A DNA stretch of 64,000 bases from an uncultured Paracoccaceae bacterium (lineage in GTDB: Bacteria > Pseudomonadota > Alphaproteobacteria > Rhodobacterales > Rhodobacteraceae): NCBI GenBank assembly GCA_947497985.1, contig CANMIX010000004.1, forward strand, positions 1-64,000, in the 5' to 3' direction. The notes beneath the pieces were generated by a model, which was not told where the DNA came from, made no database searches, and saw nothing but the letters and a program-made list of their open reading frames with translations. Below, piece by piece: positions 1,277 to 14,880 of the stretch; within the stretch, counting starts at the first letter, position 1; every line of letters starts with the position of its first letter. The position numbers were made by a program, and so were the translations under genes.

Positions 1277-3007
1277 CTAGGCCGCGCGGTCCTCGAGAAG
1301 CAGCGGCTGGTCGTCCGGCAGATGAAACGCTCCGGCTAGCGCGTCAAGGCGGGCGGCCTCTGTGCGCAGAACCTCAACCGATTGGGTGTTGAGGGCGACG
1401 ATCTCATCATTTTGCTGGGTGAGCGCGCCCAGCTCGTTGAGGCGACCGGAGAGATCCTGCAACGCGGCGCTGTCGTTTACAAACCCATCCGCCGAGGTGC
1501 TGACACGTTCGGAAATCTCGCTCATCCTTGTAATGATATGCTGCAGGACAGCGCCGGTGTTGTTGACCTCGCTCACACCGTTTTCGATATGGGCGGTGGC
1601 ATCGGTGATCAGCGTCTTGATCTCGGTTGCCGCGTGGGAGGTTCGCATGGCCAGTGCCCGTACCTCTGAGGCGACCACCGCAAAACCTGCGCCAGCTTCG
1701 CCTGCGCGCGCGGCCTCGACGCCTGCGTTCAGCGCCAGAAGGTTGGTCTGAAACGCGATATCATCAATGGTGCCGATGATGGTTGCGATCTGGCTGGCGC
1801 TGTTTTCGATGCTTTCCATCGCGGTGACCGCATGTTCGACCACGGCTGCGTTGCTTTGGGCTTCATGCACGGCTTCGCCGACGATGCCATTGACGTCGCG
1901 GGCACCGTCAACCGCGCTGGCCACGGATTGGGTCAGCTCTCCCATGCCATTGGCAATATCACCCAGCGTGTCGGATTGGGTGTGAATGCGAGACGACAGA
2001 TCGCCAGAGCCTTGGCGGATCTCTGTTGTCTGGTTGAGGATGCCAGAGGCGGTGCCCAGCACCTGGGTCATCATCTGACCAATGGCCGCAAGCGCAGAGT
2101 TGAAGTCCTCACGCAGGGGTTCATAGGCATCTGACAGGGGCTGATCCATGCGATAGGCGAGATCCTGACTGGCCAGCGCGGCCAGACCCTGGCGCAGCTC
2201 TTCCACGGCTTTGCTTTGCTGGCTTTGCTCGGCGCTGCGGGCGCGGGCGGCGTCCTGACCCTGACGTAATGTGACCTGCAGGCTTTGGACCCGGTGGGCG
2301 ATCTCTCCCAATTCGTCCTTGCGATTGCTGGCGGCCAATTGCGTGTTGTAATTGCCATCGGTGATGGCGCGCAGGCATTGGCCGATTTCCTGCAACGGGC
2401 GCCCCAGAAGGCGGCGCAGCAGCAGGAAACATACGATACAAGAGGTGATCAGCAGGCTGATGCCGATCAACGTCTCAACGATCAGGCCTTTTTTGAGGGC
2501 TGCAAAGGTCGCCGCCGGGTCCCAGATCATGACCAATGTTCCGCGCAGCGCGCCTTTTTTGGACAGGATCGGAAAGACCATGCGAAACCCATCCTCCGAT
2601 ATCCACGGCTGCAGATCGGTGGCAACCTGCAGTTCCATCGCCTCAATCTCGGCAAGGTCGAACTGGCTGTTGTCGCCTTTCTCGCTCATCACCACACCAT
2701 TGGATTTGGTGACACGAGCGTATTTAAAGCTTTTGCCGGCCCGTTCGATCACATAGTCGACCCGGTCATCCACCGTGCCGGAAAAGCCCAGTTGCACCGG
2801 TTGGGCCACTTCTTTTGCCACCATTTGGGTGAGTTCACGTTCCATATCGCGGGTGGCGGTCATCGATATGCGGATCATTTCCATTTCTGCAAATATAGCT
2901 ACGGGGACTGCAACTATGATTGAAAAGGTTGAGACAAGGAGTGCGATGCGAAAATTCATCGACTGGAAAAAACGGTGACGTTTAAAGAGGGGGGATTTCG
3001 GTTTCAT
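1277..3007 (-). CDS. methyl-accepting chemotaxis protein
   Basis: Transmembrane chemoreceptor that controls CheA kinase activity. The 576-residue product has a membrane segment at about residues 21-40, a periplasmic sensor of about 135 residues, a second membrane segment at about 175-198, a HAMP linker to about 250 and a cytoplasmic signalling coiled coil. The conserved hairpin tip is clear near residues 405-440 (DDIAFQTNLLALNAGVEAAR, then AGEAGAGFAVVASEVR). There is no C-terminal CheR-tethering pentapeptide of the NWETF type. The periplasmic domain is in the size range of a single Cache domain, but I cannot identify its ligand. The gene stands alone; no che genes are nearby. Confidence 0.92.
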   Translation of the reverse strand: MKPKSPLFKRHRFFQSMNFRIALLVSTFSIIVAVPVAIFAEMEMIRISMTATRDMERELTQMVAKEVAQPVQLGFSGTVDDRVDYVIERAGKSFKYARVTKSNGVVMSEKGDNSQFDLAEIEAMELQVATDLQPWISEDGFRMVFPILSKKGALRGTLVMIWDPAATFAALKKGLIVETLIGISLLITSCIVCFLLLRRLLGRPLQEIGQCLRAITDGNYNTQLAASNRKDELGEIAHRVQSLQVTLRQGQDAARARSAEQSQQSKAVEELRQGLAALASQDLAYRMDQPLSDAYEPLREDFNSALAAIGQMMTQVLGTASGILNQTTEIRQGSGDLSSRIHTQSDTLGDIANGMGELTQSVASAVDGARDVNGIVGEAVHEAQSNAAVVEHAVTAMESIENSASQIATIIGTIDDIAFQTNLLALNAGVEAARAGEAGAGFAVVASEVRALAMRTSHAATEIKTLITDATAHIENGVSEVNNTGAVLQHIITRMSEISERVSTSADGFVNDSAALQDLSGRLNELGALTQQNDEIVALNTQSVEVLRTEAARLDALAGAFHLPDDQPLLLEDRAA

Positions 3008-8119: not shown

Positions 8120-10531
8120 TCATGACGCCTTTTGCACAGGTGATCGTGGCGCAGCACCGCCATTGGCAGAACCCCGCTCGTGAAGCGCGAATTTACCAAC
8201 AGAACTGCTGAGGTTCTCTGACAGATGGGAAATTGAGTGGGCCGCATCCGCCAGATTGTCAGCGTCACGCGCGCTGCTTTGCGCCTGACCTTCCAAGTTT
8301 CGAGCCGATTGCACGCTGGCGGCCAGGGATTGTGCGTTGTGTTCCGCGTTGGATTTTACTGAACCTGCCTGATCGCGCACCTGTTGAATGGCTTCGGCGA
8401 CCGTCGCCGCCTGTTGCGATGCACTTTCGATACGCGAAGAGGTGAGATGCGTGGCTTGGCGTTGCGAATTCACCGCTTTGGTAATGCCTGCAACAGAGGC
8501 GTGAATGCCAGACATCAGCTCGGTGACCTGGGTGATGACCGATGTGGCGCTGTCGGACTGGCTGCGCATCTTTCCGATGGTGTTTTTGATTTCCTCAGCC
8601 GCGTTATCGGTTTCTTGAGCGAGGCCACGCAATTCAGAAGCCACCAAAGAGAAACCTTTGCCTGCTTCGCCCGCGCGCGACGCCTCAAACGATGCATTCA
8701 TGGCCAACATGTTGGACTGCATGGTGATTTTCTTGACCAGATCGACGACCGCTTCGATTTCTTCCATGGCCTGCGACAGCGCCTGCATGGTGGTGACCGC
8801 TTCACCTGATAACTGATTGGCCTCATGCGTGACGGCGCTGGTGGCGTCCGCGTTCTACGAGATCTGCTGTACAGATTGCATCAAGCCGCTGATCGCGTCA
8901 GAGACGGCCGAGACCTCACCAGACATTCCGTCGGCGCTTTGGGTGATGCGGGTGACCTGTCCCAGGATTTGGTCAGCCGTCTCGCGGTTGTTTTGCGCCG
9001 AGGTCGCCACGGTGGCGGCGGTTTGGCTCATTTCGGATGACAACTGCTTGGTTGCGGTGGCCTCAAGGCGGAACCGGTGGGAGATTTCCTCCAACCCGTT
9101 TGAGGAGCGTTGCATCTGTAATGCGTGCCCCTGGATGCCAGAGACCAGATGATGCACCTGGGCGATGAATGGGTTGAACAGCGCGGCCAGCTCTGCCGCC
9201 TCGTCACCGGTGGTCTCATCCAGACGGCGGCTTAGATCGACGCCGTTCTTTGTCATGGCCTGCAGTTGCGATTGCAACACGCCGGTGCCAAGAGAGGCCC
9301 CGTGTTCGGTGGCATTGAGGCCTTCGATTTCGTCCTTTAGGGGAACTCGGATGCCGATGGTCATATCGAGGATTTTAAAGAAGACAAAACTGGTGCCAAA
9401 AGCCCAGGAAAACGTCACCGTAACGCCTTCTATCTGCACGACGGCCTGGGCCCAGGGCGTGGGTGCTGCCAGCTTGTCGGGCAGAGCAAAGAAGGCCAGC
9501 ATGATTGTGCCAAGCGCGCCGCAGACCCCATGGACCGAGACCGCACCCACCACATCGTCCAGTTTCAGGACGCGTTCGATGACCCATTCCGACAGCACAA
9601 CACACAGGCCCGCGCTCAACCCGATGATCACGGCGCCTTGAACCGTTACAACATCGCAGCCTGCGGTAATGGCAACCAAGCCGCCAAGGCTGCCGTTGAT
9701 GGGGCGGTTGGGGGTGTGCAACGTGTCAAAGATCCGACCGGAAAACAGCCCCGCGACCCCGCCAAAACAGGCCGCAAGGATTGTGTTGAGGATGATATGG
9801 GCGAATGCTGGATCTGCTGTCGTGGTGGAGCCGCCGTTAAAGCCGATCCAGCCCACCCAGAGGATAATCGCACCCACTGTCGCAAGCACGTAACTGTGTC
9901 CCTGCAGCGTGTTGGGGCTGCCGTCTTGAGCAAATTTACCGTGGCGGGCGCCTAGGACAATAATGCCCGCCAGCGCCACCCAAGCACCAACCGAGTGGAC
10001 AACGGTGGAGCCCGCAAAATCGATAAAGCCTCGGTCCGCGAGAAAGGCGGCATTGTCTCCATTCAGAAGATTGCCCCAGGACCAGTGGCCGCTGACCGGG
10101 TAGACCAGAACCACCACAAAAATTGCTGCCAGAAAATAGGCGGAGAATTTCATCCGTTCGGCCACCGCGCCGGACAGGATAGTGGCGGCGGTGCCCGCAA
10201 AGACCGCCTGAAACACAAAGAAAGTGTATTGCCAGTCGTCCGCCTGCGCAAAGGCAAAGGTATCTGTGCCGATTAATCCGGACCATGAGGTCCCGAACAT
10301 CAAGCCAAAGCCAAGCAAATAGAAAGCGCTGACCGAGACAACGAAGTCGATGATGTTCTTTTGGGCCACGTTGATGGAGTTTTTTGAACGTGCCATGCCA
10401 GCTTCAAGCAACAAAAATCCGGCTTGCATCATGAGTACCAGAGCAGCTGCAATCATGGTCCACATGTGGTTGGCGGAAATTTGTAAGTGGTCGACAGAAA
10501 CGTGCAGAGTTTGGAGGGTAACGTCTTGCAT
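8120..10531 (-). pseudogene. Amt ammonium transporter-chemoreceptor fusion, interrupted by TAG
   Basis: A single reading frame of 804 codons joins an ammonium transporter to a methyl-accepting chemotaxis signalling domain, broken only by TAG at 8855-8857 (codon 559). Downstream of the stop the same frame continues NADATSAVTHEANQLSGEAV and reaches the chemoreceptor hairpin (ITMQSNMLAMNASFEASRAG, then EAGKGFSLVASE) at about codons 605-640. Upstream, a helical linker begins after the transporter near codon 410. One C-to-T change of a CAG (Gln) codon would produce this stop. If real, the receptor loses its CheA-binding tip; if an error or suppressed, the gene encodes an 803-residue ammonium chemoreceptor. 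Confidence 0.8.
8855..10531 (-). CDS. ammonium transporter domain, predicted truncated product
   Basis: Residues up to about 400 are an Amt/MEP/Rh channel with some 11 membrane helices. The twin pore histidines are present: H179 (TVVHSVGAWVAL, E. coli AmtB H168) and H334 (SVHGVCGALGT, AmtB H318). The signature FQAVFAGTAATILSGAVAER is also intact, so the pore looks functional. About 150 residues of coiled coil follow before the TAG. An in-frame ATG at 10582 lacks a ribosome site; the ATG at 10531 (MQDVTLQ) follows GTGGAAAAC and is chosen. No glnK neighbour is present, unlike a standard amtB operon, consistent with a sensing rather than uptake role. Confidence 0.85.
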   Translation of the reverse strand: MQDVTLQTLHVSVDHLQISANHMWTMIAAALVLMMQAGFLLLEAGMARSKNSINVAQKNIIDFVVSVSAFYLLGFGLMFGTSWSGLIGTDTFAFAQADDWQYTFFVFQAVFAGTAATILSGAVAERMKFSAYFLAAIFVVVLVYPVSGHWSWGNLLNGDNAAFLADRGFIDFAGSTVVHSVGAWVALAGIIVLGARHGKFAQDGSPNTLQGHSYVLATVGAIILWVGWIGFNGGSTTTADPAFAHIILNTILAACFGGVAGLFSGRIFDTLHTPNRPINGSLGGLVAITAGCDVVTVQGAVIIGLSAGLCVVLSEWVIERVLKLDDVVGAVSVHGVCGALGTIMLAFFALPDKLAAPTPWAQAVVQIEGVTVTFSWAFGTSFVFFKILDMTIGIRVPLKDEIEGLNATEHGASLGTGVLQSQLQAMTKNGVDLSRRLDETTGDEAAELAALFNPFIAQVHHLVSGIQGHALQMQRSSNGLEEISHRFRLEATATKQLSSEMSQTAATVATSAQNNRETADQILGQVTRITQSADGMSGEVSAVSDAISGLMQSVQQIS

Positions 10532-10900
10532 TGGTTTTCCACGCAGTTTTCGAGAATACGAAACTGAGGTACAATCGGCCATTTAATGGAAAGTTTATTT
10601 GAAGGGTGAATTTGTCGAATTTGTGAGGTGAACGGTCGTATTTGTATGATTATTATTCAGTTTCATTACCGGCGCCCAAGAACTCCGTTCAAAGGCGTCG
10701 ATGAGATTGGGCTGTAAGCGACTATTGCCTTTCGAAATTCAAAATATTGATATTGTCGGATGTCGCGGGACCGGGCTTGCTGCTCCCGACGTTGATCACA
10801 AAACGCAACCGGCGCCGCGCGTCAGCGCGGCGCCGGGCCCAAGTCTGGTGGAACGCCTGAAAGGCGGTTCATAAGGACGCGGGAGTGCGCGCCCCTTCGT
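10532..10900. other. intergenic region, Amt-receptor promoter and pgk end
   Basis: No supported gene. It must hold the promoter of the Amt-chemoreceptor gene; I see no convincing sigma-54 (GG-N10-GC) element. At the other end it contains the pgk terminator hairpin. Confidence 0.5.
10801..10836 (-). terminator. hairpin downstream of pgk, probable terminator
   Basis: CCGGCGCCGCGC and GCGCGGCGCCGG pair perfectly over 12 bp around GTCA (10809-10836). On the minus strand the hairpin is followed by TTGCGTTTTG, a modest T tract, about 65 bases after the pgk stop. Confidence 0.55.
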
Positions 10901-13524: not shown

Positions 13525-14880
13525 ATGATGTCTGTGTATTTTAAGGCCAGCACGGCGGTAACGCTGATCATGCTGTCTGCTCCAGCTTTCGCGCAATGCC
13601 TGCCAACGGTGCCCGATGATGGTGATCTTGTCACCTGTACTGGGATCGACACAGATGGTTTGAGCCAGGAGTTTCTGGGCACAGGCAACCTGGATGACGT
13701 GAATGTTGTTGTGAACCCAGGCGCGCTTGTCAGCAATCTTAGCAGCGGTGAACACACGATCGAATTGGACGATGACGCGGTTGTTGAAATTAACGCTGGC
13801 GGCACCGTTCTTGGCCTGTTGGGCCAAGATGCCATTCATCTGGACAATGACGGCCAGGTCTTCAACAACCACTTTATCTCCGCTGATGATGACGCCATTC
13901 AGGGAGACGATGGGCTTTTGGTCGACAACCGTGGCTGGATACAGGCCATCGACGAGGGGATCAACGCCGAGGACGACGCTGAGGTGATCAACCGTGCGGG
14001 CGCGTCCATCATTGCCGGTGACGACGCGGTGAAAGTCGGGCGTCGCGCCACCATCTTTAACGAGGGTTTCCTGCAGAACACCGGCGCCGACGCGGACGAT
14101 CCACAAGATGCCGTTGATCTCGATTCCGGCACTGTCATCAATCAGGGTGGCCTGATTTTCTCCAATCTCGGCGATGGTATCGATTTTGATGCGGTAGAGC
14201 TGGACGGCGATGATGATGTGGCCGAGGTCAGCTTTGTCCAGAACCGGGGCAATGGGATCATCCAAGGCCAGATCGGGATTGAGACCGATGCGGCCAATAC
14301 GTCGTCGCAGTTTGTTACACTGCACGATACGTCGTCCTTGCTCGGCCATTCCGGGGTGGCCGCCAATTTGGGTGACGGTGAGGATCTGGTGCAGCTCAAT
14401 GACAGCGCGCAGATCTTTGGTGATGTGTTCCTTGGCGACATGAACGACATTTTTGAGGTACGTTCCGCGGATGTTGTGCTGGACGGCGATGTGTATTTTG
14501 GCGAAGGCGACAACACATTGGCGCTGTTGGGCGACGGGGTGAATATCTTTAGCGGGGATTGGTTCCAGACCAATAGCGCGACCTTTGTTGGTGGCAGCGG
14601 TCTGGACACGCTAAGCTTTTTGGACACTGATCCGTTCACCTCGGACGATTTCGCCGCGCTGTTTGAAGTCAATTTCACCTCGGACGACCGGTTCTCGCTG
14701 GACGCGGGGTTTGGCGCCTTGGTCTTCTTTGAACAATTCGACAATCTTTTGCTGAGCGATGGCACCTTTGCTTTCAGTGATTTCGCAGCCATTGCCCCGG
14801 TGCCGCTGCCTGCAGGTGGCCTGCTGTTGCTGGGTGGCTTGGGTGGTTTGACGGTTTTGCGTCGCCGCCGTCGGTCTTAA
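13525..14880 (+). CDS. VPLPA-CTERM sorting-domain surface protein
   Basis: Exported protein of 451 residues. A Sec signal peptide (about 1-24, ending SAPAFA) is followed by a long Asp/Gly-rich repetitive region with repeated N-x-G, DDAI/DDAV and V-x-NxG elements at roughly 20-residue spacing, suggestive of a right-handed beta-helix like passenger domains. The C-terminus is a classical exosortase signal: VPLPAGG, a hydrophobic helix and an Arg-rich tail (RRRRRS). VPLPA-CTERM proteins are processed by a dedicated exosortase (XrtD type), which is not in this window. Function is unknown; export and surface attachment are inferred. Two adjacent ATGs (13525, 13528) follow AAGGG. Confidence 0.85.
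   Translation: MMSVYFKASTAVTLIMLSAPAFAQCLPTVPDDGDLVTCTGIDTDGLSQEFLGTGNLDDVNVVVNPGALVSNLSSGEHTIELDDDAVVEINAGGTVLGLLGQDAIHLDNDGQVFNNHFISADDDAIQGDDGLLVDNRGWIQAIDEGINAEDDAEVINRAGASIIAGDDAVKVGRRATIFNEGFLQNTGADADDPQDAVDLDSGTVINQGGLIFSNLGDGIDFDAVELDGDDDVAEVSFVQNRGNGIIQGQIGIETDAANTSSQFVTLHDTSSLLGHSGVAANLGDGEDLVQLNDSAQIFGDVFLGDMNDIFEVRSADVVLDGDVYFGEGDNTLALLGDGVNIFSGDWFQTNSATFVGGSGLDTLSFLDTDPFTSDDFAALFEVNFTSDDRFSLDAGFGALVFFEQFDNLLLSDGTFAFSDFAAIAPVPLPAGGLLLLGGLGGLTVLRRRRRS

Follow-up and report, generated by a model that had tools for sequence, protein, structure and literature searches.

The gene at positions 8120..10531 on the minus strand of the window (the whole 64,000-nucleotide stretch of DNA analysed here) is probably a copy of an ammonium chemoreceptor gene that was broken recently. 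In members of the family that are intact, an ammonium transporter (Amt) domain would act as the sensor, and a HAMP-like module and an MCP hairpin would steer the cell via CheA. At the level of the family, sequence comparisons give good support to an Amt that acts as a chemoreceptor's sensor: the Amt-MCPs fall on the same side of a phylogenetic tree as receptor Amts, most residues of the Ks-Amt5 ammonium site are conserved in them, and Ks-Amt5 and Sd-Amt1 are their closest solved relatives. An earlier sequence-only reading proposed an ammonium chemoreceptor in which the channel itself is the sensor; this is supported for the family but not for the window gene, which carries a premature stop. 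The ligand, the direction of signalling, the coupling to CheA and the behaviour described below for Amt-MCPs are predictions.

The fusion gene has 804 codons including the terminal TGA, and its ATG at 10531 agrees with the starts of the intact orthologues. The Amt domain (PF00909, E = 8e-106; residues 24-412, 9296..10462) carries the twin histidines H179 and H334 and is followed by a HAMP-like junction (residues 419-453, 9173..9277) and the descending arm of a coiled coil (8858..9172), which extends as far as a premature in-frame TAG at codon 559 (8855..8857). The corresponding codon is a sense codon in four intact relatives. The MCP signalling domain (PF00015, E = 1.5e-27; 8369..8845) and the hairpin tip region (8639..8725) lie past the stop. 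All of these features are on the minus strand, and Pfam finds both domains in the same frame. The single frame from Amt to MCP described in the sequence-only reading is present in this sense, with a complete Amt and both histidines, but it is shut by the TAG at 8857-8855. This is the sole premature stop in the frame; the window strain has no uninterrupted frame, its open reading frame comprises 558 residues, and a separate open stretch of 244 codons holds the MCP hairpin. As the stop parts the sensor from the hairpin, the receptor is most likely non-functional in the window strain, where the gene would yield an Amt that ends in a short piece of coiled coil. An open reading frame of 222 amino acids past the stop (8120..8788, minus strand) could yield at most a soluble MCP fragment.

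Pfam reports no periplasmic sensor domain in the protein, and no PII gene is found near the fusion gene; both PII matches of the genome are on other contigs (C14 and C3), the one on C3 adjoining a stand-alone amt. The absences of a periplasmic sensor and of a neighbouring glnK, as previously described, are thus borne out. A terminator-like stem-loop with 12 G-C pairs (10803..10836, minus strand) is situated between pgk and the fusion gene; the region has six terminator-like sites compared with 3.8 expected in shuffles. Among signs of mobility around the gene, only short repeats are found, none flanking it in a telling way. An ordinary HAMP-MCP chemoreceptor (L016) is encoded at window positions 1280-3007, minus strand, ∼5 kb from the fusion gene. 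Elsewhere in the window (13525-14880, plus strand), an acidic protein of 451 amino acids ends in VPLPAGGLLLLGGLGGLTVLRRRRRS, a C-terminal end that presumably resembles a VPLPA-CTERM sorting signal.

Intact orthologues of 809-814 amino acids are present in Tritonibacter mobilis NBRC101030, Tritonibacter scottomollicae DSM 25328 and Epibacterium sp. Ofav1-8, and these display 70-71% identity to the 558-residue part of the window protein. Each has one continuous frame, which rules out that the two halves are separate genes, the outcome named in the sequence-only reading as fatal to it. A chance overlap of Amt and MCP sequences is ruled out by the domain E-values and by the orthologues, three in the genus and more elsewhere. 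Among 18 Tritonibacter/Epibacterium genomes, the Amt-MCP is intact in three, broken in two (the window's and Epibacterium ulvae 4A10) and without a copy at the cut-off used in 13; in this count, the match in G008 is a GGDEF-EAL fusion, and the TAG recorded in G006 is simply the terminal stop of its 809 codons. The E. ulvae 4A10 copy sits, like the window's, between pgk and ftsB, and is disrupted by separate frameshifts and stops elsewhere in the gene. Three of the eight genomes searched for pgk (G002, G011, G380) have pgk followed by ftsB with no fusion gene between them, and ftsB was not found in the fetched pgk flank of G004, G006, G016 and G008. In the three intact genomes, the fusion gene adjoins a gene that we take to be trpB. 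The two chromosomal places, one between pgk and ftsB and one beside this neighbour, indicate that the gene has moved or been transferred.

Past the stop, too, comparison of the window sequence with the intact genes gives an excess of differences at the third codon position, of the coding type; with locus L021, the values are 0.34, 0.27 and 0.62 at codon positions 1, 2 and 3. Amino-acid differences in this part are 45.5% between the window and L021 and 46.3-48.8% in the other window pairs (48.8% with L067), and 45.7% between L021 and L067, both of which are intact. Coding-type divergence at the rate seen between intact genes points alike to a lesion that is recent, to an assembly error or to a suppressed stop. 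The window copy has most likely been broken recently. A TAG in a draft assembly could be a sequence error, and a gene that still functions, whether because the TAG is suppressed or misassembled or because the products of the two open reading frames reassemble, would agree with the single premature stop and with the unaccelerated, third-position-rich divergence past it. A lone recent nonsense mutation would nevertheless give an equal pattern, the downstream open reading frame would lack part of one helix, and the E. ulvae copy, at the same place and broken elsewhere, makes loss in this lineage plausible. We therefore regard a functional window gene as unlikely, and continue with a recently broken copy of a gene that is intact in its relatives.

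Searches for the Amt-MCP architecture across family, class and phylum samples detect further fusions, in Alphaproteobacteria and in one genome outside that class. With a cut-off of 1e-68, two candidates were scored in each genome, and the places whose loci were fetched number 17, 30 and 30, respectively; the classification covers the fetched loci and leaves aside unfetched matches (for example G545, with an open frame of 766) and G520, at a contig end. Amt-MCPs are found in at least seven of 394 family genomes, at least five of 385 class genomes and at least three of 398 phylum genomes, the window's genome being counted in each. Altogether 18 genomes carry them: the window's, G004, G006, G016, G380, G168, G065, G293, G097, G034, Pelagibius marinus, a Kiloniellaceae MAG, G532 (at two places), G697, G443, G618, G1117 and G924, the last being the sole case outside Alphaproteobacteria among the 18. 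Some of these Amt-MCPs are cut by contig ends. Outputs are assigned by motif patterns unless the protein was run through Pfam, and among the 18 Amt-MCPs only L056 is assigned on patterns alone. The patterns missed L068 and L069, recognised as MCP fusions by hand and confirmed by Pfam, and L133, which was found by Pfam.

Of the known systems, Ks-Amt5 of Candidatus Kuenenia stuttgartiensis (PDB 6eu6) is the closest in both sequence and fold. When the T. mobilis protein is compared with PDB sequences, Ks-Amt5 scores 325 bits, 8qj3 and 8qpf score 278 and AmtB 145; in the fold comparison, ranks 1-4 are taken by 6eu6, entitled 'Sensor Amt Protein', and three Shewanella denitrificans Amt1 entries. 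Sd-Amt1 (PDB 8qj3, 8qj4, 8qpf), the next-best match, is known here from its entry titles, two of the three referring to the receptor OFF- or ON-state, and only chain residues 8-415 align to the T. mobilis protein. Ks-Amt5, like the Amt-MCPs, has an N-terminal Amt receptor, a fused output and no adjacent glnK. It binds ammonium at a buried site formed by Q24, E31, N47, D50, T51, T109 and T112, translocates ammonium poorly and controls its kinase (PMC5764959). The output is the main difference: in Ks-Amt5 it is a kinase, attached without a HAMP according to its description (PMC5764959), whereas the two halves of Amt-MCPs are joined by a HAMP-like module. By these sequence likenesses, Amt-MCPs would belong to the Ks-Amt5-type sensor/transducers; the fusion in one frame is found in the intact orthologues, and in the window the frame is cut. 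What is new is the MCP output; the sensor belongs to a known kind.

Equivalents of the Ks-Amt5 site are found in the window within 10172..10426 (minus strand), where Q36, E43, N59, D62, T117 and S120 correspond to Q24, E31, N47, D50, T109 and T112 of Ks-Amt5, whose numbering is used below. Residues were tabulated for 78 Amts, of which 16 are MCP-fused (the window's included), 27 kinase-fused, four GGDEF-fused, two otherwise fused and 29 stand-alone. Duplicate loci of one gene, L002, L004, Amt matches shorter than 330 residues (L024 and L061 among them) and L131-L159 were left out of both table and tree, and the window row is labelled MCP by hand in both. All 16 MCP-fused Amts, the window's among them, keep Q24, E31, N47, D50 and T109 and have Ser for T112; T51 is kept in none. 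D50 and T109 are found in every fused Amt (16/16 MCP, 27/27 kinase, 4/4 GGDEF and 2/2 other fusions, 49/49 in all) and Q24 in 48 of the 49. E31 is common to all 78 Amts, and N47 to 77.

Stand-alone Amts, AmtB included, share with Amt-MCPs the Amt fold, selectivity filter, Phe gate and twin histidines, and differ in having no signalling domain and mostly a Leu for the site Asp. The combination A24, L50 and S109 is present in 21 of 29, a sample drawn by searches with fused Amts as query and thus not a fair draw. D50 is present in eight of the 29, six of which also have Q24 and T109; this suggests that the site marks a receptor clade, not fusion as such, and it weakens D50 as a mark of fusion alone. 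The twin histidines are present in all 78 Amts tabulated and were discarded as a sign of sensing. Two stand-alone Amts of the window's genome outside the table have Ile (L002) and Ala (L004) at the position of the site Asp. Loci L073 and L075 (G182 and G241) are tandem pairs of stand-alone Amts of 425-440 amino acids that lie in the receptor clade and keep Q24, D50 and T109; the second Amt of each pair has Leu at Phe-gate position 103.

A careful tree of 79 Amt domains places all fusions, Ks-Amt5 and five stand-alone Amts on one side, with support of 94/95, just under the level that the program stars. A quick tree displays the same split with a starred support of 98.

The junction between the two halves is most likely a divergent HAMP, judged from profile scores. 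The absence of a HAMP, part of the sequence-only reading, is most likely wrong in view of the Pfam scores, a profile comparison and an NCBIfam model, with a PDB search on the other side. Pfam detects HAMP at the window junction with 16.6 bits, below its cut-off of 25. Scores are 15.7-18.8 bits in the three intact orthologues, 20.3 in L025, 17.4 in L055, 22.7 in L083 and 16.9 in L097; L086, with 29.8 bits, is the sole Amt-MCP above the cut-off. HAMP-like matches are thus present at the junction in nine of the 17 Amt-MCPs scanned. In the other eight (L067, L068, L069, L070, L071, L084, L131 and L133), Pfam reported no junction HAMP at the limits used; L068-L071 have HAMP or HAMP_2 matches farther down, that of L071 below the cut-off. 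A kinase-fused Amt, L153, also displays a junction HAMP match (22.5 bits). Comparison of a profile of 11 junctions with the HAMPs of ten MCPs of the window's genome gives E = 1.7e-4 and a probability of 50%, compared with 0.2% and 0.1% for two coiled-coil controls. The match to the NCBIfam CtpM receptor model begins with the junction and extends across it (for the window protein, E = 7.7e-8). No HAMP came up when the junction profile was searched against PDB sequences; the best match there, at E = 0.27, is a sensor kinase. AlphaFold2, run on nine sequences (mean pLDDT 70.4), predicts for the T. mobilis protein a helix at 410-424, then a connector and a second, long helix that starts at 439, as well as a turn at 616-620. 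Confidence in these features is low, with block means of 31-55 near the junction and 43-69 along the coiled coil.

In a rival reading, Amt-MCPs are mainly ammonium transporters, with a coiled-coil tail that only localises or clusters them at receptor arrays, or regulates transport, and no sensing for taxis. The selectivity filter, Phe gate and twin histidines are kept in 16/16 MCP-fused Amts, and two of the three pore-blocking residues of Ks-Amt5 are mostly absent (Y30 in 0/16, F34 in 1/16; F27, present in 16/16, is also present in all 29 stand-alone Amts). The MCP-fused Amts may consequently also conduct. The NCBIfam ammonium transporter model TIGR00836 accepts the intact T. mobilis protein, with 347.4 bits against a cut-off of 343.3. 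A mainly transporting role is nonetheless distinctly unlikely. The fused Amts group with receptor Amts, the junction resembles a HAMP, which is a signalling device, the window's genome has three other Amts, one with an adjacent PII gene, and Ks-Amt5 has the same pore residues yet translocates ammonium inefficiently (PMC5764959). An Amt that senses for a chemoreceptor is preferred for the family.

The output half resembles that of canonical chemoreceptors of the E. coli Tsr/Tar type, a group that includes PDB 2ch7, which we take to be TM1143. Both have a signalling hairpin with a recognisable tip, preceded in canonical receptors by a HAMP and in Amt-MCPs by the putative HAMP of the junction; canonical receptors have a periplasmic sensor domain, in whose place the Amt-MCPs have the Amt channel. 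PF00015 matches the three intact orthologues with E-values of 6.7e-28 to 1.1e-30. Compared with what we take to be the E. coli Tsr tip sequence, the tip is identical at 36 of 61 positions in T. mobilis and at 31 of 61 in the window. N381, E385 and R388, presumably trimer contacts of Tsr, are kept in the Amt-MCP tip, and F373 is replaced by Met. The arm from HAMP to tip comprises ∼159 residues, or ∼22.7 heptads, and is longer than in all ten other MCPs of the window's genome scanned, in which the MCP profile match is 14 residues shorter; the three intact orthologues display no such gap. The window's genome has 15 MCP-domain matches (the fusion gene, 12 strong and two weak or partial), four CheW-domain matches and a single match to CheA (PF02895). 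With a longer arm and only one CheA seen, it is uncertain whether Amt-MCPs join the same arrays. A strict methylation motif is absent from the five Amt-MCPs inspected, four of which have relaxed matches, and none of the five has what we take to be the NWETF-type C-terminus. Two Amt-MCPs, L068 and L069 (G168 and G065), carry short insertions beside the usually well-conserved hairpin tip.

In the mechanism proposed for the intact proteins, the Amt domain would bind external ammonium at the buried Ks-Amt5-like site, and binding would shift the C-terminal end of the Amt. The HAMP-like module would relay this shift to the long antiparallel coiled coil, the tip of which would control CheA through CheW, and the cell would bias its swimming along ammonium gradients.

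Amt fusions to other outputs also occur in the samples. By motif patterns, the class sample includes 23 kinase fusions and the phylum sample 14 GGDEF fusions. At L074 (775-2874, in G397), an Amt is joined to a domain of the adenylate/guanylate cyclase type (PF00211, E = 1.4e-46), and L076 groups with it. An Amt with GGDEF and EAL motifs, by pattern match, occurs along with an Amt-MCP in T. mobilis NBRC101030 (G016; L128, 1489-4206) and in G380 (L082, 1441-4203), so that by these patterns each of the two may combine two ammonium-receptor outputs in one cell. Such pairs would agree with an MCP output that serves a role other than taxis, for instance in deciding, together with c-di-GMP, whether the cell swims or attaches, but this is very improbable, as only one CheA (PF02895) match is seen in each of six genomes and no second Che pathway is visible.

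On the tree, the 16 MCP rows need four label changes, compared with a mean of 14.9 in shuffles, and all output labels together need nine. The tree therefore does not demonstrate that the MCP fusion arose only once, and the changes suggest that outputs have switched more than once in this sample, although long branches make the details unsure. We lean neither for nor against a broader proposal, in which Amt plus the HAMP-like junction would be an exchangeable sensor cassette, joined repeatedly to chemotaxis, kinase, c-di-GMP and cyclase outputs, and the Tritonibacter MCP version would be a true ammonium chemoreceptor, a trimeric channel without a periplasmic domain that drives a dimer-based Che array.

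Among the open-access literature matches listed, none describes an Amt-MCP protein; an earlier mention is possible, for example in the 2009 review on Amt fusions by Tremblay and Hallenbeck. To our knowledge, no Amt-type ammonium chemoreceptor has been identified. Marine bacteria and algae use ammonium as a prime source of nitrogen, and T. mobilis is a cultured, motile species. If the proposed function is correct, T. mobilis would permit a direct test of a channel protein driving a chemoreceptor array. Amts are trimers and MCPs are dimers, of different symmetry, and the family would offer a system for studying the fit between a trimeric sensor and a dimeric coiled coil. With its GGDEF and EAL motifs, the second fused Amt of T. 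mobilis would raise the question of whether one cue governs swimming as well as attachment.
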